41,656 nt of DNA from an uncultured Holophagaceae bacterium (GTDB lineage Bacteria > Acidobacteriota > Holophagae > Holophagales > Holophagaceae). A program made the translations under genes and the position numbers. Of this stretch, positions 1 through 11,867 are shown one piece after another. The notes under the pieces were generated by a model. It searched no databases. It had not been told where the DNA came from and saw only the letters and a program-made list of their open reading frames with translations. Each line of letters begins with the position of its first letter. The stretch's first letter is position 1. Location: positions 1-41,656 of the forward strand of contig CAIOFF010000043.1 of assembly GCA_903857495.1 (NCBI GenBank). Reading direction: 5' to 3'.

Positions 1-187
1 CCTCGGGCATCCCCAAGGGGGCGGCGGCTGGCTGCGGCCCCAAAAAGCCGTTCCAGCCGCCGCCCCCTTGGCCGGTCGCACGCGACCGGGGGCCCCCGGC
101 CCGGATGCCCTTCCGAGGCGATGATTGCGCCTTCGTGTCCATTTGGGCAGGTTCTTCGTGCCCTTCGTGGAGATCTTTGCAGGCCAA
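1..187 (-). repeat. Dispersed palindromic repeat A, left copy (cut by window edge)
   Basis: This is one of three copies; the others are at 33237-33462 and 41521-41656 in the opposite orientation. It contains a perfect 19-bp inverted repeat (13-31 with 53-71), then a short palindrome CCGGTCGC-AC-GCGACCGG (72-89), flanked by GGGCATCC and GGATGCCC. Beyond that runs a less conserved part rich in CTTCGTG motifs. Positions 52-111 are identical to the reverse complement of 41597-41656. Bases 188-251 hold nothing I recognise. No transposase lies nearby. The role is unknown. Confidence 0.85.
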
Positions 188-251: not shown

Positions 252-1817
252 TCAGAGGCTGCCCCAGTCGGTGGTGAGGGCGGGGCCGGGGACAATCGAC
301 TGCTCGGGGGGCAGGTCGGCGAAGGCGGCTTCGCAGTGGGTCTGCCAGCGGAGGAAGCCGTCGGCGGTGGGGCGGGCGCCGGGATGGGTGCCCTGGCCGG
401 CGAAGGGCAGGCGGGCTTCGGCGGCGTCCGCGGGGCGGTTGACTGTGGCGAGGTCCGCCCAGATCTCCCGGGTGAACTGCTGGACCTGCGCCCGGTCCTG
501 GGTGTAAAGGCTGACCGCGAAGCCGCAGGGGGCGGTGCGCGTCCAGGCCAGGGCCTGCTCCAGCTCGGTGAAGGGGCAGAGGTTCACGGAGGGGCCGGAA
601 ACCGGGTTCTGGAACAGGCCCATGACGGGCAGCACGCTGTCCCAGACGCAGGGTTGGGGGTAGGCGCCGTAGCCGATCTCACCCTGCACCTGCTCGGTGC
701 GGTTGGCCTCCGTCCAGGTCTCGCCGCCGGTCAGCAGGGCGGCGCCCTCCTGGCGGCCTGCCTCCCAGTGCTCGGCGAAGGCCTTGGCCGCGCGGGTATT
801 GATCAGGGGGCCAAAGGTCACCTCGGGATGGCTCAAGGGATTGCCCTGGGGCAGGCCCGCCAGGCCCGCCAGGAACCGCTCGCGGAAGGTGGTCGCGATT
901 TCTTCGTGGAGCAGCAGGTTCCCCAGGCCCACGGGCCGCTGGCCCGCCTGGCCGAAGGCACCAGCCAGGGCGTCCGTCACGGCCAGGTCCAGGTCCGCAT
1001 CCGGCAGCACCACCATGGTGCCCTTGCCCACCACATCCAGACTCGGGTTGATCAGGTTCCGGCCGCACAGCTCCCCCACGATCCGGCCGAGCACCCGGGA
1101 GCCCACGAAGCCGAAGCCCTGGAACAGGCCCTTCTCGATGCCCGCCAGGAAGTGCCGGCCGCAGCCGGCCCGGCCCCGGCCGTTGATGGTGTTCACCACG
1201 CCCGGGGGGAGTCCCGCTTCCATGAGGGCGCGCAGGAGGAGGTAGGCGGCGGCGGGGGCGTTGTCGCTGGGCTTCCACACCACCGTGTTGCCCGCGAGGA
1301 GGGCGGGCAACAGCTTGCGAAGGGGCGCCGCCAGGGGGGACGTGCCCGTGGCCAGGATGCCGCAGACGCCCACGGGGCGGGGGTGGGCTTGGAGCCCCGA
1401 AGGCAGCTCTCTACCCTCGGGCGAGGACTGAAGGCAGAAGTGGCGGCAGGCATCGAGGGCTTCCTGCACCTCGACCTGCGCTTCGCGGGGTGTGAGGCCC
1501 ACTTCCCGGGTGAGGAGGCGGGCCAGCTTGTTCCGGTGGGCCGCCAGGATCGCTTCGGCCCGGAGCACCACGCCCGCACGCTCGGTGGGCGGAGTCCGGG
1601 ACCAGCTCTGGAAGGCCTCGGCGGCGGCCTTGGCGGCCCGGGCCACGTCCTTGTCGCCACTGTCCGGGAACATGCCCACCAGATCCCGGCCGTCCACCGG
1701 AGACTTGGACAGGATCAGGGCCAGGTCCCCCTCGACCTCCTTGCCGTTGACGAGGTTGAACCCGATGAGGGTCGGGCCAGCCTCGACGGCGTGGGGCGAG
1801 TTGGGCTTGAGGTGCAT
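252..1817 (-). CDS. Aldehyde dehydrogenase-family protein, probably catalytically inactive
   Basis: The 521-residue product has the aldehyde dehydrogenase superfamily fold. The nucleotide-binding region is recognisable (PALLAGNTVVWKPSDNAP, about 171-188; EAGLPPGVVNTINGRG, about 200-214), and a DADLDLAV segment lies at 273-280. All three catalytic positions look altered. The PWNFP segment reads TGTSP, so the oxyanion Asn is replaced near residue 159. The LELGGK segment reads LDVVGK, so Glu becomes Asp 261. The GQxC nucleophile segment reads GQRP, so Cys becomes Pro 295. The start was placed at the ATG at 1817 because a GGAG site precedes it; the frame stays open upstream to 1949 but would run into the divergent gene. 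The family includes P5C and succinylglutamate semialdehyde dehydrogenases, but activity here is doubtful. It is divergent from the M50 gene, with a 103-bp shared gap. Confidence 0.8.
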   Translation of the reverse strand: MHLKPNSPHAVEAGPTLIGFNLVNGKEVEGDLALILSKSPVDGRDLVGMFPDSGDKDVARAAKAAAEAFQSWSRTPPTERAGVVLRAEAILAAHRNKLARLLTREVGLTPREAQVEVQEALDACRHFCLQSSPEGRELPSGLQAHPRPVGVCGILATGTSPLAAPLRKLLPALLAGNTVVWKPSDNAPAAAYLLLRALMEAGLPPGVVNTINGRGRAGCGRHFLAGIEKGLFQGFGFVGSRVLGRIVGELCGRNLINPSLDVVGKGTMVVLPDADLDLAVTDALAGAFGQAGQRPVGLGNLLLHEEIATTFRERFLAGLAGLPQGNPLSHPEVTFGPLINTRAAKAFAEHWEAGRQEGAALLTGGETWTEANRTEQVQGEIGYGAYPQPCVWDSVLPVMGLFQNPVSGPSVNLCPFTELEQALAWTRTAPCGFAVSLYTQDRAQVQQFTREIWADLATVNRPADAAEARLPFAGQGTHPGARPTADGFLRWQTHCEAAFADLPPEQSIVPGPALTTDWGSL

Positions 1818-1920
1818 GGGAACTCCAGGGCGGGGCAGGTGGTGCTCCAGCGCTGCCGACGCAGGCCATATCCCAGTCATCGGCTCCGGCCCTGTAGACT
1901 GGAGGATTGCCGGAGTCCGG

Positions 1921-2670
1921 GTGTTCGATAGCCTTTCCATACCAACCATCCTCGTCAGCTATGTGGCCCTGCTGTTCAGCCTCAGCGTGCACGAGGCGAG
2001 CCATGCCGGGGCAGCCCACCAGCTGGGGGACGACACCGCGGCGCGGCTGGGCCGCCTGACCCTGAACCCCCTGGCTCACATGGATCCCCTGGGCACCTTT
2101 GTCTTCCCACTGCTGGGCCTGGCCACGGGCTTCCCCTTCATCGGCTGGGCCAAGCCCGTGCCGGTCGATCCCCGGAACCTCACCCGCAAGTTCACCCAGC
2201 GGGGGGGGATGGCCTTGGTGGCCGCTGCGGGCCCCGCCTCCAACCTGGTGTTGGCCGGGCTCTTCCTGACCGTGCTCATCCTGCTGGTGAAGCTCTCCGG
2301 AGTGCCGCGGATGCTGGAGTTCCGGCTGTTCGTGTATGCGTTGCAGGCCTGGCGGGTTGAAGCCATCCAGTCGCTGGAGCTGAGCACGGGCATGACCCTG
2401 GCTCTTGCGCTCTCGAGTCGGCTGGTGCTCATCAACATCGGCCTGGCCCTGTTCAACCTGCTGCCCATGGGACCCCTGGACGGCTCGGGGATCGTGCGTG
2501 GCCTGCTGCCCTGGCAGTGGCTGCCCAAGTACGATCGCGTCCAGCCCTGGATGGGCGGCGTGCTGATCGTGCTCGCGCTCACCGGCCTGCTGGGCTATGT
2601 CATCGGTCCCGTCTTCGGTGTGATCCTCACGGGTGTCAAAGTCATCGCCCACCTATTTCTCGGAGTCTGA
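1921..2670 (+). CDS. Site-2 protease-like membrane metallopeptidase (M50)
   Basis: The 249-residue membrane protein has the zinc motif HEASH in its first transmembrane segment, right after SLSV. The second M50 motif, NLLPMGPLDG, lies in a later helix and supplies the Asp ligand. The length and compact layout match the short rhomboid-like S2P group without PDZ domains that is widespread in bacteria; substrates of this group are generally unknown. The start is taken as the GTG at 1921, preceded by a GGAG site at good spacing, because no ATG fits upstream without entering the divergent gene. It ends 5 bp before trpS, so the two are likely co-transcribed. Confidence 0.85.
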   Translation: MFDSLSIPTILVSYVALLFSLSVHEASHAGAAHQLGDDTAARLGRLTLNPLAHMDPLGTFVFPLLGLATGFPFIGWAKPVPVDPRNLTRKFTQRGGMALVAAAGPASNLVLAGLFLTVLILLVKLSGVPRMLEFRLFVYALQAWRVEAIQSLELSTGMTLALALSSRLVLINIGLALFNLLPMGPLDGSGIVRGLLPWQWLPKYDRVQPWMGGVLIVLALTGLLGYVIGPVFGVILTGVKVIAHLFLGV

Positions 2671-2675
2671 GCGTC

Positions 2676-3665
2676 ATGAGTCGCGTCCTATCCGGTATCC
2701 AGCCCTCGGGCTCCCAGCACATCGGCCACCTGGTCGGGGCCCTGGAGAACTTCACCCGCCTGCAGGGCGAGGGCGAAGCCTTCTACATGATTGCGGACTG
2801 GCACGCACTGACCTCGAAATACGAGTCCGTCGAAGAGATCTGGCCCGCCACCCTGGAGCTGACCGCCACCTTCCTGGCCGCAGGCCTGGATCCCGACCGG
2901 GCGACCCTATTCGTGCAGAGCCTGGTGAAGGAACATGCAGAGCTGCACCTGCTGCTCTCCATGGTGACGCCGCTCTCCTGGTTGGAGCGCGTGCCCACCT
3001 ACAAAGAGAAGCTGCAGAACGCCGTGGCGGACCTGGGCAGCTACGGCTTCCTGGGCTATCCCCTGCTGCAGACCGCCGACATCATCATCTACAAGGCCCA
3101 CAAGGTGCCCGTGGGTGAGGACCAGCTCTTCCACCTGGAGCTGGCCCGCGAGGTGGTGCGGCGCTTCAACTTCCTCTACCAGCGGGAGGTGTTTCCCGAG
3201 CCCGAGGCCGTGCTGACCAAGGCCGCGAAGGTGCCGGGCCTGGATGGCCGCAAGATGTCGAAGAGCTACGGGAACTGCATCTACCTGCGGGACACCAACG
3301 CCGCGATCCTGGAGAAGTGCACCCGCCAGATGGCCTCGGATCCGGCCCGGCTGCGGCGCACCGATCCCGGCAACCCCGAGATCTGCCCGGTCTTCGAGTT
3401 CCACAAGCTCTTCAGCGACGCCGAGACGGTGGCGCTGGTGGCCAGCGAGTGCCGCCAGGCCGGCATCGGCTGCTTCGACTGCAAGAAGCGCGTGGCCGAG
3501 GCTCTAACGCGCCGCATCGAGCCCATCCGCGAGAAGATCGAGAGCCACCTGGGCCACCCCGGCGACATCGAGGCGGTCCTGCGGGACGGCAGCGCCCGCG
3601 CCCGGGCCGTGGCCGCCGAGACCATGGCCGACGTGCGCGACGCCATGAAGCTGCCGGTGCTCTGA
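2676..3665 (+). CDS. trpS: Tryptophan--tRNA ligase
   Basis: TrpRS charges tRNA-Trp in the cytoplasm. The 329-residue length is typical of the bacterial enzyme. The class I signature HIGH appears as QHIGHLVG near the N-terminus after SGIQPSG, and the KMSKS loop is present as GRKMSKSYGN near residue 195. The ADIIIYKAHKVPVGEDQ segment is the conserved substrate-binding and dimer region. The ATG at 2676 follows a GGAG site and lies 5 bp after the M50 stop, which indicates a two-gene transcription unit. Confidence 0.97.
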   Translation: MSRVLSGIQPSGSQHIGHLVGALENFTRLQGEGEAFYMIADWHALTSKYESVEEIWPATLELTATFLAAGLDPDRATLFVQSLVKEHAELHLLLSMVTPLSWLERVPTYKEKLQNAVADLGSYGFLGYPLLQTADIIIYKAHKVPVGEDQLFHLELAREVVRRFNFLYQREVFPEPEAVLTKAAKVPGLDGRKMSKSYGNCIYLRDTNAAILEKCTRQMASDPARLRRTDPGNPEICPVFEFHKLFSDAETVALVASECRQAGIGCFDCKKRVAEALTRRIEPIREKIESHLGHPGDIEAVLRDGSARARAVAAETMADVRDAMKLPVL

Positions 3666-3760: not shown

Positions 3761-3837
3761 GGTCCCTTAGCTCAGCTGGTTAGAGCATCTGACTCTTAAT
3801 CAGAGGGTCCCCGGTTCGAGTCCGGGAGGGACCACCA
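3761..3837 (+). tRNA. tRNA-Lys (anticodon CTT)
   Basis: The full cloverleaf is readable. The acceptor stem GGTCCCT pairs with AGGGACC. The D arm contains AGCTCAGCTGGTTAGAGC. The anticodon stem TCTGA/TCAGA encloses CTCTTAA, giving anticodon CTT. The T arm is CCCGGTTCGAGTCCGGG, and CCA is encoded. The 3' half is the attachment site of the element that follows; integration kept the gene intact on this side. Confidence 0.97.
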
Positions 3838-3840
3838 GCA
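3789..3840 (+). repeat. attL: 52-bp core within tRNA-Lys
   Basis: It is identical to 11816-11867. It runs from the anticodon stem through the CCA end plus GCA. Outside the repeat the sequences diverge on both sides. Confidence 0.93.
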
Positions 3841-3843
3841 AGG

Positions 3844-3887
3844 AAGCCCCGATTCCATTAGGTTTCGGGGCTTTTTCTTGTTCTTTT
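3844..3887 (+). terminator. Rho-independent terminator supplied by the element downstream of tRNA-Lys
   Basis: A 9-bp stem (AAGCCCCGA, 3844-3852, with TCGGGGCTT, 3865-3873) is followed by a T-rich tract. It lies inside the element directly after attL, so it replaces the chromosomal terminator now stranded behind attR (11871-11902). Confidence 0.85.
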
Positions 3888-4307
3888 AACAGGGCCGTGA
3901 TTCCGGCCGTTACCGCACCTTTACCACATCCGGGCCAAATCGAAGCCCAAAAGGGCAGGGACGGCCAGGCCGCGCGCCTATGCCGAACCTATGCAATCAG
4001 GCCCGCCAAACCTTACCCCAACCTTACCGTTGGCAGCCCCGCCCATTATGACAAGTCATCCCGGCGGCCTTCAGCGTAGAAGCCCGCCAATGCTGGATTC
4101 ATCCTGTTTCCGCGCCCGCCAAAGGGCCGTTTTACTTGGCACTAACTTGTCATTAAGCAGGCCCGGCGCCTGGCGGGCAGGCCCAGGATCTTACCCGAAT
4201 CTTACCGGCCCGGAACCTTAGTCAAATCTTAGTGGTTCATCCCCGCCCTGCCTGGCGCTGGGCGTGTCCAAGGAACACTGGACACCAGGCTGGACACCCT
4301 TAGTACT
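3888..4307. other. Non-coding left end of the element with repeated TTACC motifs
   Basis: I see no convincing gene here. Same-orientation TTACC motifs occur at 3910, 3922, 4013, 4024, 4191 and 4202. The first pair (3910-3929) matches 17 of 20 bases of 11667-11686 near the right end. Such end-proximal repeats would suit integrase arm-type or excisionase sites. Near 4264-4297 there are also repeated TGGACAC/GTGTCCA motifs next to the stop of the zinc-ribbon gene. Confidence 0.5.
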
Positions 4308-4817
4308 TCATCCCCGCCGGGCCTGCCGCTGGGCCTTGAAGTCCGCCCGCATTTCCTTCTCGTATTCCCGCGGGCTGGCGCCTGTCATGGCGCAGAGCAT
4401 CCCGATCATGGCGCCGCGATCCCACCTGTGGGCTTCTTGGCTACTGATGTAGGCCAGGCCGTGACACCGGCGGCAGTAGAACCAATAGGCGCCAGGCGGG
4501 CGGTAGAGCTTCAGGCACCGCCGATTGCACCTGGGACAATGGAACCACCACGACGAACCGCCCAGGTGCGGGTGCCATTCTTCAACTTCCACCATCCCGC
4601 CGTCGGGCAGCTGCACTATCGGCCAGTCCCGCCCGGGCCAGATCACCCGGCCGTCCCAGGCTTCGGGTTCCGGCAGGATGCCCTTCCATCGCCACTCAAG
4701 CGGCCTGGCCCGCAGGACACCCGCCAGCTTCAACCCCTTGATGGACACGACGGCACAGGCTTCCACCACCTGGCGCGCCCTGTGTCCGTCCCACCGTCCG
4801 CTGCCTGATCCGCCCAT
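4308..4817 (-). CDS. Zinc-ribbon protein of a mobile-element-associated family
   Basis: The 169-residue product begins MGGSGSGRWDGH, a start I associate from memory with a family of uncharacterised proteins common in mobile elements. This is why the ATG at 4817 was chosen over the upstream ATG at 4883; a GGGGCGG-like site precedes it. The C-terminal half has two cysteine pairs, CPRC (in WWFHCPRCNRRC) and CRRC (in FYCRRCHGLAY), which form a probable four-Cys zinc ribbon, followed by the conserved SSQEAHRWD. It is the last gene of the element before attL. The function is unknown; nucleic-acid binding is plausible. Confidence 0.75.
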   Translation of the reverse strand: MGGSGSGRWDGHRARQVVEACAVVSIKGLKLAGVLRARPLEWRWKGILPEPEAWDGRVIWPGRDWPIVQLPDGGMVEVEEWHPHLGGSSWWFHCPRCNRRCLKLYRPPGAYWFYCRRCHGLAYISSQEAHRWDRGAMIGMLCAMTGASPREYEKEMRADFKAQRQARRG

Positions 4818-4859
4818 ATCCGCCCCGATTTTCCAAACGCCACTTGGTTCTGTCCACCT

Positions 4860-4922
4860 GTTAATGCTATTAACCCGCACCATTACTGTGTTTCATGCGT
4901 TCCGTAATTAGTGCAATTACGG
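4860..4922. promoter_or_regulatory. Two AT-rich palindromes upstream of the zinc-ribbon gene
   Basis: GTTAAT-GCT-ATTAAC (4860-4874) and CCGTAATT-AGTGC-AATTACGG (4902-4922) have perfect arms. They lie in the gap between the 120-residue gene and the zinc-ribbon gene and are AT-rich against the surroundings. Neither has a T tract, so operators or protein-binding sites are more likely than terminators. Confidence 0.45.
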
Positions 4923-4947
4923 GACACCCACCCTATCAGGCCAGGAT

Positions 4948-5310
4948 CTAGCACCGGCGCGGGTTTAAGCGTGTTTGGCTGGGCATAGAAGTAGGCCGAA
5001 GATGGCCCTTTTGGGCCGTATTTAGCGTGATCTGGCGCCTATTCTCGGCGTCCCGGCAGGCCCGCAACAGGGCGGGATCGACTAGGTGGGCCAGGTAGTC
5101 CGGGAAGGTTGTCACCCGATCCGCGGCCAGGCTGGCGTCATGGGCGGCGTCCGCTTCCAGCAGGGCCAGCAGGGCGGGCCGGTGTTCGGCGATCAGGCCC
5201 AGCAGCTCGGGCGGCGGTTCGGTGGCGCCTGTTAGCCGCAGGCCGCCAGGCCGAAGGGACAGGTGGAAGCCCATCCCTTCGGCGCGGCCCAGCACATCCC
5301 GCGGCGTCAC
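4948..5310 (-). CDS. Small protein with TubC N-terminal-like helical domain
   Basis: The 120-residue product starts at GTG; GTGA overlaps the stop of the ATPase gene by 4 bp, implying translational coupling. Residues 1-50 (leucine-rich, with a LSLRPGGLRLTG core and HRPALLALL end) resemble the short TubC-type docking fold that I have seen attached to replication proteins of mobile elements. The remainder is hydrophilic and unrecognised. It could be an accessory factor for the primase/ATPase pair. The domain match is from memory only. Confidence 0.6.
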   Translation of the reverse strand: MTPRDVLGRAEGMGFHLSLRPGGLRLTGATEPPPELLGLIAEHRPALLALLEADAAHDASLAADRVTTFPDYLAHLVDPALLRACRDAENRRQITLNTAQKGHLRPTSMPSQTRLNPRRC

Positions 5311-7139
5311 AAGTCCACCGTGACGGAATCACCCGACACGGCCCTTAAAGATAGGATTGAACCGTCCGAACCGTCCGAACCGTCCGAATCCTTTGTGGCA
5401 TAAGGGATTTCTTGTCGGACGGTTGGGATTTCGGATCGTCCGACGGATGCCGCTACCGTCCGAACGGACGGACTGTCCGGTGTTTTCGGACGGTTGCCCG
5501 ATTCTACCGTCCGAACAGAATTCCCTTGTGACGTATGGCCTTCGGACTGTTCGGACTGTTCGGACTGTTCTTTCTCATCATTAAGGGCCGCCTGCTTCAA
5601 TGTGATGATCCGGGCGTTCTTCTTCCCACCGCCCTTGGTGTGTTCCACTTCAAGCCCTGTCTGCCGCATAGCCGGTGCGATCCGTCGAAGGTGATTACCC
5701 ATACCCTTCGCGGACTTCGGCCAGCCCTGCGGTGGGCGGGCGCCTTCGGGCCTTGCAGCGTTCAGGGCATCCAGCAGATCCGCGGCGGTGCCTGTCCAGG
5801 TATTGCCCCCGGCCTTCACGATGCCCAGCACCAGGGCGTGGATCGAATCCCCTTCCAGCAGAATCCGGGCGCCGTCCTCCCGGGCCGCGGCGTATGTCTC
5901 GAGGAATTCACCTTCCTTCCAGGGCATCGCGGGTTCCGCGGCCATGATGAACCGGGCGAAGTCTGCCATCCGCGGCAGGGCGCAGCTGGGCAGGCCCGGC
6001 AGGCGCCGTAGAGCCACCGCCACCGCGCCCAACAGGCCGCCCAGGATGTCAGGCTTCACCAGATCCACGGCGCGCCAAACATCCGCTTCGGGCAGGCGGT
6101 TTTCTTCTTTGATCTGTTCCAGCGTGACGGCCAGGGCGCGATCCGCCAGATCCCCGCGCGTCATCAAGTCCGGGATGCCGTTCAGGATGATGGGCCGCTT
6201 CGCGCTGAACAGGGTTTCTTCCGAATCGGTGTAAAGGGCGCGGGTGGCGGACCCGGCGCCGGTAGCCAGGCGGCACAGGGCGTCCGACAGCCACTCAGGG
6301 ATCGTGGAAAAGTTATCGAAGCCCAGGATGTGGGCGTTCTGTGCGGCAATAGCCAGATCCCTTTCTTCCTTCGGTGTGGTGCGAAGGCCGACACTATTCG
6401 GATCGACGATTTCCCGCAGCACCCGGGCCGCGGTGCTTTTGCCGGTCCCCTGTTCACCGGCCAGGGCCAGGATCGGGTAAGGCCCGGAACCGCCCAAGGC
6501 AAACAACAGCCAGGCCAGGGCCAGGCGGATGCCTTCTGCATCGGTGTTCAGGACGTCGATCAGCTTCGTCAAGTCCCCGCCGGGCTTGGGCATCGGCAAG
6601 GGCAGCAGGCCCGCCGGGCGCTTGAACCGCACCGGCAGATCCAGGGCCGGGCGGATCGTCCAGCCACCCGGTGTCACATCCACCACATCCCATTCGGGCC
6701 GTCCAAGATCCAGCATCACCCGGCCCGGAAGGTGGGCCACCCGGACGGCCACCGGGTGTTCGTCGCCGTCATGGATGGCCTTCGCTTCCAGCAGGCCCAG
6801 GGCGTCGGCACATTCCTGGGCGCTTAGGCCGCGGCCTTCCCGGCCATAGAACAGGCCCATCATCCACATCCGCGCGGCCCTGCTTCGGATCGGGTAGTTT
6901 TCCCTGTGGCCGCCCTTGTGGATGCTGACGAACCCAACCATTTCGGGATCGTGCCACAGTTCCGCACCACTACCCAGGGCCAGGCGCACCGCCCGATCCG
7001 ATGCCTTGGTGCGGGTGGCCTTTTCTTCTTCCTGGGCAGGCGGTGCTTCCGCAGGATGGGCGCCAAGATCCAGCCCTTCGGGTTCTTCCGGCCCTTCGGG
7101 TTCCAGCGGGTCGATGAATTCCGACAGATTGATATTCAT
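5307..7139 (-). CDS. P-loop ATPase/helicase-like replication protein of the element
   Basis: The 610-residue protein has an acidic N-terminus (1-45), an unassigned domain to about residue 190, and an ATPase core. Walker A is GEQGTGKS (228-235), Walker B is in ILGFDN (271-276), a sensor-like ILNGI is at 318-322 and an arginine lies in DLADRA (331-336). This arrangement is common in phage and island proteins partnered with AEP primases, where they unwind the origin. The C-terminal ~90 residues are low-complexity (SEQ and SDG triplets) because the DNA carries 9-bp iterons here. ATGA overlaps the primase stop by 4 bp, so the proteins are made together. Helicase activity is inferred. Confidence 0.8.
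   Translation of the reverse strand: MNINLSEFIDPLEPEGPEEPEGLDLGAHPAEAPPAQEEEKATRTKASDRAVRLALGSGAELWHDPEMVGFVSIHKGGHRENYPIRSRAARMWMMGLFYGREGRGLSAQECADALGLLEAKAIHDGDEHPVAVRVAHLPGRVMLDLGRPEWDVVDVTPGGWTIRPALDLPVRFKRPAGLLPLPMPKPGGDLTKLIDVLNTDAEGIRLALAWLLFALGGSGPYPILALAGEQGTGKSTAARVLREIVDPNSVGLRTTPKEERDLAIAAQNAHILGFDNFSTIPEWLSDALCRLATGAGSATRALYTDSEETLFSAKRPIILNGIPDLMTRGDLADRALAVTLEQIKEENRLPEADVWRAVDLVKPDILGGLLGAVAVALRRLPGLPSCALPRMADFARFIMAAEPAMPWKEGEFLETYAAAREDGARILLEGDSIHALVLGIVKAGGNTWTGTAADLLDALNAARPEGARPPQGWPKSAKGMGNHLRRIAPAMRQTGLEVEHTKGGGKKNARIITLKQAALNDEKEQSEQSEQSEGHTSQGNSVRTVESGNRPKTPDSPSVRTVAASVGRSEIPTVRQEIPYATKDSDGSDGSDGSILSLRAVSGDSVTVDL
5361..5568. repeat. Iteron-like 9-bp repeats inside the ATPase gene; candidate origin
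   Basis: Unit ACCGTCCGA on the plus strand is at 5361, 5370, 5379 (tandem), 5455 and 5506, with one mismatch at 5435. The inverse TCGGACGGT is at 5415 and 5486. A tandem inverse variant, TCGGACTGT, is at 5542, 5551 and 5560. That makes eleven units in 208 bp, in both orientations. The period of 9 keeps the reading frame and encodes SDG/SEQ repeats. Origin function is inference. Confidence 0.7.
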
Positions 7140-8146
7140 GAAATCACCCCCGCGGCGCGAAGAACATCAGCCAATCCCAGGTGGGCGTGGCAGCCATGAG
7201 AACAGGACCAAGTGGGCCACCGGCCCGGTTCGTGGATGATGAAACCCGAATCGTCGTCAACGTTGCCGGAGTGTTCGTCATACCAAGGGCAGCTTGTCCG
7301 CCACTTCTTACCCTTCTTGACGCCTTCCTTGAAGAATGGCCGTTCAGGGCCAACCTGCACATCCATGGCCTTGAGCAGATCCGCCAGGCGCAGGGTTGAA
7401 AGATATCCAGGGACTGGCGCAGCCCAGCCATAGCCCGCTTCTTCGCGTTCTTCTCTTAGCCGCTTGATGTGCGGCAGAACAGGGATCGGCGGCACATCCA
7501 TCGTGGGCAGCTCGTCCAGCGGAATCGCCAGGGCTTCCCCCGGGATTTCTTCGCGCTGGATGGCATCGGCGCCGCCAGGATGCCCGGCCAGAAAGTAGAT
7601 CCGCGCCACATCGCGCAGGGCGCCCATGTCCAACCCGCGCCGGGTGTCCAGCAGGCCAAGGTGGGCCAGCGCCCATTCCGTCGCTTGATGCCACTGGGCC
7701 ACCGGGACAGGCTCGGCAAGGGCCACTAGGGCGCGATGCTTGGGCCATCCGTCCTTGTGGCTATATGTCGTGTACTGGTAGGCCAGCACCTCGGCAGCCC
7801 ACAGGGCATCCGACACTTCCAGCATCGTCACCGGGTTGTCGATCAGCACCTTCCGGGTTTTCGGTGTGCCGCTTTTGTGGAATTCGCCCGGGATCACTTC
7901 GTCGCGCGCGTTGTCATAGTCCAGGCCCAGCAATTGGATGGACTGGGCTTCGTCCTTGCCGCGGTGCTGCGGTTCAAACCTGGCGCCAGCAATTGCCGGT
8001 AGTCCCTTCTTGGGATCGTCGCCCTGCTTCACGCGGCGCGGCGTGTTCGTTCGTTCCAGGATCGCAACCAGTTCCGGCCAGGTGCCTTCCCAGGGCTTCG
8101 GTAGGTTGTCTGAAGCATGGGTGAATAATGAGCAGGTGACATTCAT
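7136..8146 (-). CDS. AEP-superfamily (primase-polymerase) replication protein
   Basis: The 336-residue product has the archaeo-eukaryotic primase hallmarks. LLGLDYDN (73-80) supplies two metal-binding aspartates (D76, D78). TTYSH (126-130), followed by PKHRALVAL, matches the histidine motif. DVARIYFLAGHPG (179-191) fits the third motif. The C-terminus has C and H residues in SCPWYDEH and WSCSHGCHAH that could bind zinc, as in primases with a terminal zinc element. The start ATG overlaps the upstream stop (ATGA), and the stop overlaps the ATPase start. It should prime replication of the excised element. Confidence 0.78.
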   Translation of the reverse strand: MNVTCSLFTHASDNLPKPWEGTWPELVAILERTNTPRRVKQGDDPKKGLPAIAGARFEPQHRGKDEAQSIQLLGLDYDNARDEVIPGEFHKSGTPKTRKVLIDNPVTMLEVSDALWAAEVLAYQYTTYSHKDGWPKHRALVALAEPVPVAQWHQATEWALAHLGLLDTRRGLDMGALRDVARIYFLAGHPGGADAIQREEIPGEALAIPLDELPTMDVPPIPVLPHIKRLREEREEAGYGWAAPVPGYLSTLRLADLLKAMDVQVGPERPFFKEGVKKGKKWRTSCPWYDEHSGNVDDDSGFIIHEPGRWPTWSCSHGCHAHLGLADVLRAAGVIS

Positions 8147-8490
8147 TCGGCACCGCCTTCCGGGCGCTCAATCTGCACCTTGTTTCCGGCGCCCAGGGCT
8201 TCCATCGCCAGCACCACATCCGCGCCCAGCTTCGTCCCGGCACCGGCGGCGTCCAGGATGATGCACCCGCCCTTGCCGTTGCGGATCTTCAGTTCTTCCA
8301 GGATCGTCCCATCCAGCTGGCGCAGGTAGAGCATCTGGAACCCGCGCCCGCGGGCCGCGCAAACTAGAATCCGCTTTGCCTGCCACCGCATCACATCCGG
8401 CGCCAGTTCGCCGTCCATGAACCGGCTCACGATCATAAATTCTTCCCCACAGTCCTGCTGGCGTCCCGCGCCACCGGCCCGCTTCGCCAT
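8143..8490 (-). CDS. Unknown 115-residue protein of the replication operon
   Basis: The start was chosen at the ATG at 8490, one base after the stop of the AlpA-like gene, with an AGGCGGG site upstream; the open frame extends to 8583 but would overlap that gene. The product (MAKRAGGAGRQ...) has a basic N-terminus and a C-terminal half with alternating hydrophobic and charged residues. I recognise no motif. Tight packing between the AlpA-like and primase genes suggests a role in replication or its control. Confidence 0.65.
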   Translation of the reverse strand: MAKRAGGAGRQQDCGEEFMIVSRFMDGELAPDVMRWQAKRILVCAARGRGFQMLYLRQLDGTILEELKIRNGKGGCIILDAAGAGTKLGADVVLAMEALGAGNKVQIERPEGGAE

Positions 8491-8491
8491 A

Positions 8492-8749
8492 TCAACCCGC
8501 CTTTCTGGCGTCATGCTCGGAAGTCGAGGCGGCGGTGTGGGCTTCCACCCATTCCGCCAGGGCGGGCAGGGAATAGCGGACACGGTTCCCCAGCTTGACG
8601 AACCGCGGGCCTTTGCCCTGGCAGCGCCATTCGGCCAGCGTCCACTCGGAACACTTCAAGTAGGCCGCCGCGTATCCCGCGCCTACCAGGCCGCCAGGGA
8701 TCGGCACCGCGTCGGCGGGTGCCTTGGGTTTTGTGGCTTCGTCGTTCAT
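8492..8749 (-). CDS. AlpA/excisionase-like helix-turn-helix protein
   Basis: This is a small DNA-binding protein of 85 residues. Residues 22-72 (AGYAAAYLKCSEWTLAEWR, then RFVKLGNRVRYSLPALAEWVEAH) match the MerR-like HTH of AlpA/excisionase proteins, with the typical R(V/Y)RY strand after the recognition helix. In P4-like elements such proteins activate integrase or promote excision. It heads the replication operon, so it may act as a switch. Its ribosome binding site AGAGG lies inside the dyad at 8754-8788. Confidence 0.82.
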   Translation of the reverse strand: MNDEATKPKAPADAVPIPGGLVGAGYAAAYLKCSEWTLAEWRCQGKGPRFVKLGNRVRYSLPALAEWVEAHTAASTSEHDARKAG

Positions 8750-8753
8750 GTTT

Positions 8754-8788
8754 ACCTCTGGATAGGCCCACTTGGGCTATCCACAGGT
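8754..8788 (-). promoter_or_regulatory. Dyad covering the ribosome binding site of the AlpA-like gene
   Basis: Arms 8754-8765 and 8777-8788 match at 11 of 12 positions, and inner GGG/CCC pairs leave a 4-base loop. On the minus strand the 3' arm contains AGAGGT, 4 bases before the ATG. As RNA it would hide the ribosome binding site; as DNA it would make a good operator for the RHH or AlpA-like protein. The two readings are not exclusive. Confidence 0.6.
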
Positions 8789-8832
8789 ATGAATTCCGGC
8801 TTTCGTATTATCAAAAACGAACAGCCCGGGAG

Positions 8833-9525
8833 TTAATACACCTCTATATCCCCCTGTGGGTTGGGCGCTAGATCCTGGAGTTTCCTTGAGGTGATTATTT
8901 CCTCACCATATTTGTCCCAGGCCGCGTCGAACAGCTGGGATTTAGTGCTGAGTTTTTCGCCAGTGATGGCATGACGCTTTATTTCTAGAGAATCGCCAGT
9001 GGACGCTTCGTGGATTATTCGGCAAATTTTTGGCGGCAGGCTTGAATCGTGGCAACCCATGCGGGTGAGAATTTCCCAGCAGCACGCCAATAAGGCTTTG
9101 CTAGGTGTTTGCTGCCCTTTCTTGACTGGAAGGAAAGTGGCGATCCTCCCGGCACGGGTCTTTATCTTCTGGATTGATTCCATGTCTCTGGCGAGGGCGG
9201 CCTGTTCTTCATCGACTAAATTTGTGTAGTGGCAAGCTGCCAAACCACCCATGTCTCGAAGGCCACGATAAAGGGCGTCGGCCTGCCTCTCGATATTGAG
9301 TAATTTGTCCCTGGCATCTGCTGGTGTTTGCCCCGCGGACAGACCTAACACAGCAGAGTAAAGCTGGGAGAGGTAGATCATTTCAGCGCGGAGGATCTCC
9401 GGGTTGACAGCCTGAACAGAAGCCTGGAGAAGCGACACAGCGCCGCCTATGGCCTTCTTCCCTTGCGCGGTTTCCCAGTTCCTAGGCTCCGCCTTGGCCT
9501 TTGGGTTTCTTCCTCGCCCAGCCAT
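8833..9525 (-). CDS. Unknown 230-residue protein, possible cargo
   Basis: The product starts MAGRGRNPKAKAE with a basic N-terminus, then appears mostly helical, with cysteines scattered in LAACHYTN and LLACCWEIL. I recognise no family. The gene uses many A/T-ending codons and is visibly AT-richer than the rest of the element, suggesting separate acquisition. A GGGGA site precedes the ATG at 9525. It stands alone between the replication operon and the RHH pair, with gaps of about 80-90 bp on each side, as a cargo or moron gene would. A phage-interference role is possible but unsupported. Confidence 0.6.
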   Translation of the reverse strand: MAGRGRNPKAKAEPRNWETAQGKKAIGGAVSLLQASVQAVNPEILRAEMIYLSQLYSAVLGLSAGQTPADARDKLLNIERQADALYRGLRDMGGLAACHYTNLVDEEQAALARDMESIQKIKTRAGRIATFLPVKKGQQTPSKALLACCWEILTRMGCHDSSLPPKICRIIHEASTGDSLEIKRHAITGEKLSTKSQLFDAAWDKYGEEIITSRKLQDLAPNPQGDIEVY

Positions 9526-9617
9526 AACATCCCCGCCGATGCATCCCGCAAAGGAAGCGCGGCAGCTGGTGCGGGAACCAGTTTTCGGGCCGTCGCCCTA
9601 GCCGCGCTTATTCGATT

Positions 9618-9842
9618 CTAGGCTACCGATTCACGGCCCGCCTGGATGAAGGCGCGAAGGTTCCACGGCCCGCCGGTGACGAACAGGCGTTCACCTGCCA
9701 GGGCGCCCAGTTCGGCATACCCTTCGGCTTCTTCGGGTGTGGGTGCGGGCTTGTGCAGATCCGCCGCCAGGCGGGCCATGATCACAGGGCCAGCGAACCG
9801 CCCCGCCTGGCGGGCTTCTTCTAGTGTGGTGGGCTTGTTCAT
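9618..9842 (-). CDS. Unknown 74-residue protein coupled to the RHH gene
   Basis: The ATG at 9842 overlaps the stop of the RHH gene (ATGA), so the two are translated together. The product (MNKPTTLEEARQAG...) is acidic, alanine-rich and probably helical, with no recognised motif. The RHH-plus-small-partner layout recalls antitoxin-toxin pairs, but nothing in the sequence identifies a toxin. Confidence 0.6.
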   Translation of the reverse strand: MNKPTTLEEARQAGRFAGPVIMARLAADLHKPAPTPEEAEGYAELGALAGERLFVTGGPWNLRAFIQAGRESVA

Positions 9843-10039
9843 GGCTTTAGATCCTCAAGGGACACAGGCGCGGGATCTGCCGCGGCAGGGCCGTAGGCGG
9901 CCAGGATTAGGCGGCCCAGCAGGCGGCCAGGTGACAGGCCCAGGCGCTCGCAAGCGGCCCGGAACAGGGCGTGTTCATCTTCCCGAAGGCGGAAGGATAA
10001 TTGGACTGTGGGTATTTCAGCTTTCGGCCTGCCTGCCAT
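9839..10039 (-). CDS. Ribbon-helix-helix (CopG/Arc-like) DNA-binding protein
   Basis: The 66-residue product begins MAGRPKAEIPTVQLSFRLREDEHALFRAACERLGLSP... with an extended strand VQLSFRLRED followed by two helices, the pattern of ribbon-helix-helix proteins. It is likely dimeric and a candidate repressor of the element. The 200-bp gap upstream (10040-10239), shared with the end of the integrase gene, is AT-rich and should hold its promoter; I could not settle on -35/-10 boxes. Confidence 0.7.
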   Translation of the reverse strand: MAGRPKAEIPTVQLSFRLREDEHALFRAACERLGLSPGRLLGRLILAAYGPAAADPAPVSLEDLKP

Positions 10040-10239
10040 GTTTCACCCCATGCCCAACAGGCTAGCCGATCCGCGCGGGCGCGTGAAGGGTATTTCTACT
10101 TTCGATAACGGCCATTATGTAACCTCAACTTTTTGCTAAGTACTTGTGTTTTCAGCATCGGATATTTTGGCCTGTGCCGGGTTCTGAAAGTGAATAAGTG
10201 GGCGCCGGTTATCTGCACTTGGCCGCCTAATCGAATGAG

Positions 10240-11637
10240 TCAGGCGCCCTTGGCCTTCTCTTTCGCCTTCTCATCCTTGGCCGCCTTCGCTTCTTCGGCT
10301 TCCTTCGCCAGATCCACCGATCCGGCCAGCAGGGCGGCCATGCGGGCGCCGATCACTTCCACGGCATCCTTCAGCGGGTCAAAGCCCAGGCGGGCATACC
10401 CTTCGGTTACAGTCCCGGCGGCGTGGCCCAGCAGGGCGCCGGTGAAGGAATTGGGATAGCCCAGGCGGGCGCCCAGGCTGGCGAAGGATCGGCGCAGATC
10501 ATGGATCGTCACATCCGACAGATCCACCCGATCCTTCTTCGGCACCTTGGCCTTCACTTGCAGGGCCGTCACCGCGGCTTGAACCGTGGCCCACATCTTG
10601 GGCAGGCCCACCAGGGCTTCGCCTGTGTAATAGCCCGGGATCACATAGGGATTACCCAACACCTTCGGCAGCGTGTCGAGCAGCTGGTGGGCGGCGGCGC
10701 ATAGCGGCACGATCCGGGCGCCTACCTTCTTGGCCGTCTTGTGGAAGGCCAGGCGGATCTGCCCGGCTTCCAGATCCACCGCGGCCCAGGGCAGGGCAGG
10801 GCTTTCCACGATGTAGGCGCCGGTTTCCTTGTCCTTCTTCTTGGCGCCGATCAATTCGGACTTCCTCATGCCGGTGAGCAGGTAAAGGCGGAAGGCGGCC
10901 AGGGCGTGAACATCCAGGGCCGCCAGGGCTTCCTTGTCCCGGTTCTGGCCTGTGGGCGTGGGTTCCAGGTGCCGCAGGGCCGCGCCCAGGGCGATCAGTT
11001 CCCGATCCGACAGGTGGCGATCCTTCTTCGTTTCTGCGGCGCGGGCCTGGCCCTTGGCTGGGTTTGTTCCGGCAGGACAGAAGCCCCACAGGGCGCCCAG
11101 GGTAAACATCTTGGACAGGACGGCCCGGGTGCGGTTCGCCAGGATGCCCTTGGGCGTGTCCTTGCGGATCTTCGCCAGCAGGCGGGCCACTTCGGGCGTG
11201 TCCACATCCTTTACCCGCATGGGACCCAGGGCGGGAAGGATGTGCTTATCCAACAGGCGGGCGTATTCGGCGCGGGTGCTGGGCTTGAGCGTGGGCAGGT
11301 GTTCGGCCCGGAATTGCTCGGCCAGATCCTTCACTGTCTTGGCCGCGCGCTCGGCCTTCTTCTTTGCCGCGGGATCGTTGCCGTCGCCAATGTCGCCTAG
11401 CAGCTTGATGGCCTTTTCCCTGGCCCTGCCCACCGTCACTTCCGGCCACCTGCCGATTGAGTGCGTTTTCCCCTGCCCATGCACCCGGAAGCGCAGCACC
11501 CAGGACAGGGTGCCTGCGGGCGTCATCTGGATATACAGGCCGCGGGTTGTGGCATCTGGAACCCGGTATGTCTTGGCCTTCGGTTCCATCCCTTCAACAA
11601 ACGCCTTGTTGATCACCTTGCCCTTGGTTTCGCCCAT
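10240..11637 (-). CDS. int: Tyrosine-recombinase integrase of the element
   Basis: The 465-residue protein integrates and excises the element at tRNA-Lys. The N-terminal 1-95 region is the arm-binding (DUF4102-type) domain, 100-180 the SAM-like core-binding domain, and 205-430 the catalytic domain. Catalytic residues are visible: R258 in LTGMRKSEL, K near 300 (HKTAKK), H379 and R382 in IHDLRRS, H405 in LLGHAAG and Y414 in TEGYAR. A Lys/Ala/Glu-rich tail follows (440-465). It reads away from attR and toward the tRNA, so it lies at the far end from the reconstituted tRNA gene. Confidence 0.95.
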   Translation of the reverse strand: MGETKGKVINKAFVEGMEPKAKTYRVPDATTRGLYIQMTPAGTLSWVLRFRVHGQGKTHSIGRWPEVTVGRAREKAIKLLGDIGDGNDPAAKKKAERAAKTVKDLAEQFRAEHLPTLKPSTRAEYARLLDKHILPALGPMRVKDVDTPEVARLLAKIRKDTPKGILANRTRAVLSKMFTLGALWGFCPAGTNPAKGQARAAETKKDRHLSDRELIALGAALRHLEPTPTGQNRDKEALAALDVHALAAFRLYLLTGMRKSELIGAKKKDKETGAYIVESPALPWAAVDLEAGQIRLAFHKTAKKVGARIVPLCAAAHQLLDTLPKVLGNPYVIPGYYTGEALVGLPKMWATVQAAVTALQVKAKVPKKDRVDLSDVTIHDLRRSFASLGARLGYPNSFTGALLGHAAGTVTEGYARLGFDPLKDAVEVIGARMAALLAGSVDLAKEAEEAKAAKDEKAKEKAKGA

Positions 11638-11666
11638 GAGTCACCGCCTGGGATCAGTGTAAGCCA

Positions 11667-11686
11667 TTACCACACTGTTACCACAT
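11667..11686 (+). repeat. Candidate integrase arm site at the right end
   Basis: The double TTACC motif (TTACC-N6-TTACCACAT) matches 3910-3929 at 17 of 20 bases in the same orientation. It lies just upstream of the integrase start. The following 11700-11815 stretch has further short repeats (GTAGGCCC twice) and no gene. Confidence 0.45.
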
Positions 11687-11815
11687 ACCAGGCCCAATTT
11701 GCACCCAGGTAGGCCCTGGGTAGGCCCAAGGTAGATTGGCCTAAGATCCAGCAGGGACGCGGTAAAGCCCAGGGATGCACCCGGGTAGCACCCAGGGCGG
11801 CCCAAGTCGAAAAAC

Positions 11816-11867
11816 CTGACTCTTAATCAGAGGGTCCCCGGTTCGAGTCCGGGAGGGACCACCAGCA
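11816..11867 (+). repeat. attR: 52-bp copy of the tRNA-Lys 3' half
   Basis: It is identical to 3789-3840. The 5' half of the tRNA is absent, so this is not a functional tRNA gene. Confidence 0.93.

Follow-up and report, generated by a model that had tools for sequence, protein, structure and literature searches.

Pseudoenzymes of the aldehyde dehydrogenase (ALDH) superfamily exist and are already known as such, bacterial precedents included, and those of bacteria are little described in the open-licence literature searched. The bacterial protein PutA reportedly contains a non-catalytic, ALDH-like domain of the ALDH superfamily, of unknown function, an account said to be that of Luo et al. in 2016; this domain is part of a bifunctional enzyme. 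In the second AldDH of GRM1 microcompartment loci, the catalytic Cys is described as replaced by Ser or Pro, and a role as scaffold or regulator has been suggested (PMC4207490). Human ALDH16A1 is presented as an ALDH pseudoenzyme without catalytic residues, for which a binding role is proposed, and ALDH16, as described from the bacterial LsALDH16, is reported to have an extra C-terminal, non-functional cofactor-binding domain (PMC10650815, PMC8160307).

For ALDHTt of Thermus thermophilus, the published account numbers the catalytic residues Lys182, Glu261 and Cys295. It gives Lys182, Ser184, Ser240 and Arg342 as contacts of the ADP side of NAD (adenosine ribose, 2'-phosphate and pyrophosphate), and describes a tail with a crook over the substrate tunnel and an end in contact with the N-terminus of another monomer (PMC6127216). 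Removal of the 22 C-terminal residues of ALDHTt is reported to destabilize the tetramer (PMC11080044).

The gene considered here lies at positions 252-1817, on the minus strand, of a 41,656-nucleotide stretch of DNA (the window) from an uncultured Holophagaceae bacterium of a Geothrix-like genus (contig CAIOFF010000043.1 of assembly GCA_903857495.1). It encodes a probable ALDH-fold pseudoenzyme of 521 aa. Amongst open-licence papers, none on exactly this protein was found.

Gene product and predicted fold

The minus-strand frame is open from an ATG at 1817 to a stop codon at 252-254. A sequence-only reading of the window had described the frame as intact, which is correct, and had given no strand. 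In a profile search, residues 39-475 match Pfam Aldedh (PF00171) at 2e-86; no NCBIfam equivalog comes near its cut-off for this protein, the best scoring 226 bits where 770 are required. Compared with solved structures by phmmer, the protein is closest to ALDHTt (7.9e-104). An AlphaFold2 model, made from an alignment of 45 sequences, has a pLDDT of 88.5 and a pTM of 0.89, and its best solved structural match is again ALDHTt (6fjx_A, Z 48.9, 1.6 A over 487 residues). The Aldedh profile over most of the length and the three-domain fold of the model are those of the ALDH superfamily, and both sequence and structure place the protein nearest to the ALDHTt-like group. As modelled, the 521-aa protein has probably retained the fold of an ALDH. 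The ALDH stop codon is followed by a G+C-rich inverted repeat (window 13-71), which matches its reverse complement at 77 % and is possibly a terminator.

Orthologues and origin of the loss

The family search covered 77 genomes, 47 of them from the window's genus. Within these 47, a full-length orthologue is present in 31, a fragment at a contig end in one (G037) and none in 15. Six of the full-length orthologues (L027-L032) are intact, with the oxyanion-hole Asn, general-base Glu and nucleophile Cys (N/E/C), and the other 25 lack the Cys; the Cys-less copies are referred to below as dead and the intact ones as live. Two of the 25 (L033 and L052) are intermediates that read T/E/G, while the remaining 23 lack both Cys and Asn, with Asp for Glu in 20 of them. 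Every dead copy in the genus is full-length with an open frame, and most are 54-67 % identical to the copy in the window. One of the dead copies, L048, is that of Geothrix limicola Red804, a cultured species. The translation of L052 has an X (unreadable codon) at the expected stop and was cut at 518 residues.

In a tree of 54 of the 56 orthologue rows (all but L068 and L069, which are truncated at contig ends), the 25 Cys-less rows from the genus form one clade (support 100/100), and the tree requires two losses of the Cys. In the genus, the loss of the Cys happened in place and had a single origin. As the Cys is absent from 25 same-genus genomes, an error of sequencing or assembly is ruled out as the source of its absence. 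The second loss is in another genus, g9 (support 100/99), where Arg occupies the Cys position in all five orthologues read (L061-L064 and L067) and ELSGK is found in four; L067 has Asp for Glu and the motif GQCR, possibly a one-residue shift. Elsewhere outside the window's genus, the orthologues read are mostly intact. One of them, L059 (G071), has kept Glu and Cys, with Val in the position of the oxyanion Asn and ELGAK instead of ELGGK, and may represent the same loss at an early stage. The phylum search added eight loci outside the family (L078-L085), all of which have N/E/C.

Orthologues with an intact motif had been named in the sequence-only reading as evidence that would speak against a pseudoenzyme. 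Copies with GQRC do occur, at the same locus; since the dead copies form a separate clade under selection, these intact copies point to descent from an active enzyme.

Replacement of the active site

For comparison of sites kept and lost, 23 of the 25 dead rows from the genus (L033 and L052 were left out) were set against 15 intact rows from the family, a set that excludes L059, L068, L069 and eight outgroup rows. At the positions of the ALDHTt catalytic residues, the window protein has Lys182, Asp261 and Pro295. The three replacements noted earlier are exact; at the aligned positions, intact orthologues have Asn159, Glu261 and Cys295. Thr159 (codon 1341-1343, minus strand) takes the place of the oxyanion-hole Asn, which is Asn in 15/15 live rows; the 23 dead rows have Ser in 16, Ala in three, Thr in two, and Ile and Cys in one each. 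Asp261 (1035-1037, minus strand) stands for the general-base Glu of all 15 live rows, and the dead rows divide into 20 with Asp and three with Glu. Pro295 (933-935, minus strand) replaces the nucleophile Cys, again present in 15/15 live rows, and is found in 15 of the 23 dead rows, the others having Leu (two), Ser (two), Gln (two), Thr (one) or Ala (one).

The Cys, Glu and Asn required of an active ALDH are thus all replaced in the window protein. Loss of the Cys throughout the clade, which had been proposed as a check, was confirmed; the uniform GQRP expected with it was not, the Pro being present in 15 of 23 rows. Another Cys at the nucleophile position had been named as a refutation, and no conserved substitute was found: in the 23 dead copies, the 10 positions on either side of 295 include no column that bears a Cys. 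Further away in the sequence, Cys307 is present in 19/23 dead rows and also in 9/15 live rows, and Cys431 in 17/23 dead rows and 0/15 live ones.

Sites kept and lost elsewhere in the protein

On the ADP side, the NAD contacts of ALDHTt are largely kept. Lys182 and Ser184 (codons Lys182 to Ser184, 1266-1274), Ser240 (1098-1100) and Arg342 (792-794), the last two being pyrophosphate contacts in ALDHTt, are each encoded on the minus strand and are present in 23/23 dead and 15/15 live rows. At the fifth ADP-side contact (ALDHTt Thr156), Ala is found in the window protein, in 23/23 dead rows and in 13/15 live rows. The nicotinamide side has fared differently. Position 405 corresponds to ALDHTt Glu404, described as a contact of the nicotinamide ribose (PMC6127216). 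In the window protein, Pro405 to Ser407 (597-605, minus strand) occupy the place of the nicotinamide-side Glu and Phe, both of which are present in all 15 live rows and neither of which is found in the dead ones. Together, Asn159, Gly263, Cys295, Glu405 and Phe407 are lost in 23/23 dead rows, and Glu261 in 20/23. The suggestion that fold and nucleotide-binding segments are kept is therefore borne out for the fold, by the model and its match to 6fjx_A, and for one half only of the nucleotide site.

The retained sites form a selective pattern along the chain. Amongst columns invariant in the live rows, 11/13 are kept in the dead clade in residues 1-30, 22/41 in 31-125, 37/68 in 148-261 and 27/80 in 262-458. 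The oligomerization hairpin (126-147) keeps 1/14, the anchor loop and linker (459-493) 3/18, and residues 494-498 keep 0/2. The tail segment that holds the crook (residues 499-513; 279-323, minus strand) is degenerate, with 0/9 of its live-invariant columns still invariant, and the C-terminal end beyond it (255-278, minus strand; the last eight residues, with a TDWxSL-like motif) keeps both of its own, T516 and W518. A crook over the tunnel as in ALDHTt is thus not supported, although the tail is present and its end kept; this is a comparison of sequence columns, with the position of the tail in the oligomer unmodelled. The dead clade also has some novel residues that are fixed, for example Thr157, Gly158, Ser160 and Asp455 (23/23 each).

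This pattern fits a protein that would retain nucleotide-side and chain-end contacts and would no longer need the tunnel. Whether the tetramer is retained is uncertain, because the hairpin keeps so few of its columns. The retained ADP-site residues may have a role in folding rather than in binding.

Selection on the dead copies

Under a codon model, dN/dS is 0.097 in the 23 dead copies versus 0.035 in the six intact copies of the genus, 0.029 in four intact copies from elsewhere and 0.050 in four g9 copies. The neighbouring gene for an M50-family peptidase has an omega of 0.052 in dead genomes and 0.051 in live ones. For the window together with the two relatives nearest to it, omega is 0.068 for the ALDH gene, on a par with the 0.072 of the M50 gene, and 0.016 for trpS; a trpS fit for the second dead group stuck at 1.000 and was excluded from use. 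Fixing omega at 1 (kappa fixed at 2.3) worsened the fit by 2143 log-likelihood units for the 23 dead copies and by 178 for the window and its two relatives. By the Nei-Gojobori method, dN/dS lies at 0.14-0.27 in eight close dead pairs and at 0.03-0.18 in five live ones; the pair of intermediates has 0.29 and one g9 pair 0.17. Constraint on the dead copies is relaxed compared with intact orthologues and is still clearly purifying. The preference in the sequence-only reading for a maintained pseudoenzyme over a decayed gene is upheld by this, by the Cys having been lost only once in the genus and by the 25 open, full-length frames.

The locus and its neighbours

Next to the ALDH gene lie the gene for the M50-family peptidase, a divergent member of its family (1918-2670, plus strand; Pfam Peptidase_M50, 7.5e-9; start codon not settled), and then a gene for tryptophan--tRNA ligase (2676-3665, plus strand; tblastn 87 % to the L070 gene), which, without a family call, we take to be trpS by sequence recognition. 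Both are conserved neighbours, in the same order in relatives. The M50 gene adjoins the ALDH gene in all 31 full-length genus copies and trpS comes next in 30, the contig piece of L029 being too short. The arrangement is alike in the 25 dead and six intact copies, and the locus is thus one and the same.

On the other side of the ALDH gene, dead genomes with stretches of sufficient length have tlyA, mltG, usually an amino acid permease gene, a saccharopine-dehydrogenase-like gene, rapZ and secA; the names mltG, rapZ and secA are presumed from sequence recognition. In the intact genomes of the genus, tlyA was not found at the ALDH locus. Ten genus genomes (L097-L106) lack the ALDH gene cleanly, with M50 directly beside tlyA, and in the other five without an orthologue the locus is out of view. 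The history of this deleted state differs between two trees. A SecA tree with outgroups (48 rows; L137-L140 and L167 were omitted, so that G015 and G058 are missing, G016 and G045 had no match and G043 was outside the search) places the six intact genomes outside the group of dead, deleted and intermediate genomes (96.8/93), and eight deleted genomes adjoin an intermediate (94.7/99). In a tree of four flanking proteins, the intact genomes are joined with eight of the ten deleted ones (99) and lie amongst the dead. The root of the latter tree is not trusted, because the outgroups, which are scattered, and the intact genomes lack two of the four proteins.

In other genera, a gene for an FAD-dependent oxidoreductase of the DAO family lies beside the ALDH gene in 16 of 17 loci (L053-L069, except L058), including those of the second dead group. 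It was not found at the ALDH locus of the window's genus, beside intact or dead copies. As a lost partner of the enzyme, the oxidoreductase fails to explain the loss of the Cys, because it is present beside the second dead group and absent from intact and dead loci of the genus alike. A contig titled Deltaproteobacteria (L044) agrees in length and in gene matches with L053 of G060, a genome of the family, and the two may be one contig, the former under an older name.

Further along the window, an integrative element of ~8 kb (3761-11867) lies at a tRNA-Lys(CTT) gene, and a 52-base piece of the 3' part of this gene (3789-3840) is repeated at 11816-11867. The element has a gene of the phage-integrase family (10240-11637, minus strand), and three of its larger genes (5307-7139, 7136-8146 and 8833-9525) have no PHROG or Pfam match at E 0.001.

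A linked PAS histidine kinase

A PAS-HisKA-HATPase gene was found in 6 of the 47 genus genomes (E 1e-100; at most 35 candidates scored per genome, from a first look that gave as many as 110). In all six it is directly behind a dead ALDH gene, and what we judge to be the likeliest start codon is 0-13 nt past the ALDH stop. By eye, its N-terminal stretch has a membrane-spanning look. For these six genomes, the tree of the kinase and that of the ALDH agree in shape, with weak inner support (65 and 38; 61 and 60). In 17 of the 23 dead genomes, that of the window included, the search did not find the kinase; with at most 35 scored candidates per genome, a distant copy could escape. No convincing remnant lies in the 251 bases between the window's ALDH gene and the contig end; matches there and in L005, L006 and L034 are short, with E 0.076 or worse, and were rejected as remnants.

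Possible role of the dead protein

The dead protein is probably a maintained pseudoenzyme that acts by binding and not by aldehyde oxidation. In the ancestor of a large clade of the Geothrix-like genus, the catalytic Cys and Asn of an ALDHTt-type ALDH were lost in place, and in most lines of the dead clade the general-base Glu was lost too, the protein probably being kept for another job. It may bind a dinucleotide by its ADP half, or else a different adenine nucleotide, without redox chemistry. Some inter-subunit contacts through the two chain ends would be retained, and with them at least part of an ALDH-like assembly. Action through binding would make it the nucleotide-responsive partner of some other protein, which in some members of the clade may be the histidine kinase of the same operon; for the window genome, in which the kinase was not found, one candidate is an ALDH paralogue. 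The binding or regulatory role put forward in the sequence-only reading thus remains inferential for the 521-aa protein.

A narrower proposal, which we consider unlikely, is that the protein is a nucleotide sensor, with the ADP half of the site kept and the redox half lost. At an early stage it would have been co-produced with a PAS kinase and have regulated this kinase in response to the NAD(H) or adenine-nucleotide state, and some descendants would have dropped the kinase and gained a new partner.

Against the binding reading, the gene is dispensable, since it is absent from the locus in 10 same-genus genomes. This clean absence would also suit slow decay, in which the enzyme became unneeded, catalysis was lost, the gene is on its way to deletion and the residual constraint serves only to avoid misfolding. 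The dN/dS, ~2.8 times that of the six live copies, and the unconstrained Cys position are also in keeping with decay. However, the dead copies have remained full-length throughout the genus in spite of their divergence, an omega of 1 is strongly rejected, with close pairs likewise well below 1, and the kept sites are selective and not uniform; decay is therefore unlikely. The residues newly fixed in the dead clade, and Cys431 with its restriction to dead copies, could indicate instead that the pocket catalyses a different reaction with other residues, as the sequence-only reading had also allowed. New chemistry at the nucleophile site is argued against because this position is not fixed, with six different residues in 23 copies; the nicotinamide contacts and anchor loop are lost as well, and a changed chemistry is highly improbable.

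The dead subunit might also enter mixed oligomers with an active ALDH paralogue, and so tune it. Three ALDH paralogues with N/E/C motifs are encoded in the genome and might serve as partners or provide for aldehyde oxidation; L002, the closest of them, shares 36 % identity with an intact orthologue. The chain ends conserved here are those that mediate monomer-monomer contacts in ALDHTt. On the other hand, the paralogues are distant and encoded elsewhere, one of them (L004) has a stop codon inside the matched stretch, and paralogue matches of ~30 % occur also in genomes without the pseudoenzyme. Such a structural partnership is distinctly improbable.

Returning to a maintained, binding pseudoenzyme, the survival of the ADP-side contacts and chain ends leads to a prediction: the protein should bind nucleotide without redox chemistry. 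The kinase operon offers a candidate partner in six species. One genus has, at one locus, three states of the gene (intact, dead but conserved, and deleted), and in another genus the Cys was lost a second time, independently; close relatives thus allow a direct test of why a dead enzyme should be kept.

Comparison with known systems

ALDHTt (PDB 6FJX, 6FK3, 6FKU and 6FKV) is the best match in both sequence and structure, with the same active-site numbering and an extended C-terminal arm. It differs in that it is described as an active, NAD(P)-dependent enzyme that has Cys295 and Glu261 as well as anchor loop and crook (PMC6127216); in the window protein the catalytic residues are replaced, and anchor loop and crook are degenerate. 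The second AldDH of GRM1 loci resembles the window protein as a bacterial ALDH homologue with the catalytic Cys replaced. It is described, however, from microcompartment loci, beside another AldDH, whereas the window gene lies beside M50 and trpS. No BMC-domain shell protein (PF00936) was found in the window's genome (G000, 98.5 % complete), in a search whose control was positive in 2 of 14 genomes, and a GRM1 microcompartment AldDH was rejected on this ground. ALDH16A1, as reported, shares the missing catalytic residues, whereas the window protein is a single ALDH domain. PutA provides a non-catalytic ALDH-like domain in bacteria, and the window protein differs in standing alone. As far as tested, the window gene is none of these three: it encodes a single domain, at a locus of its own and in a genome in which no BMC protein was found.
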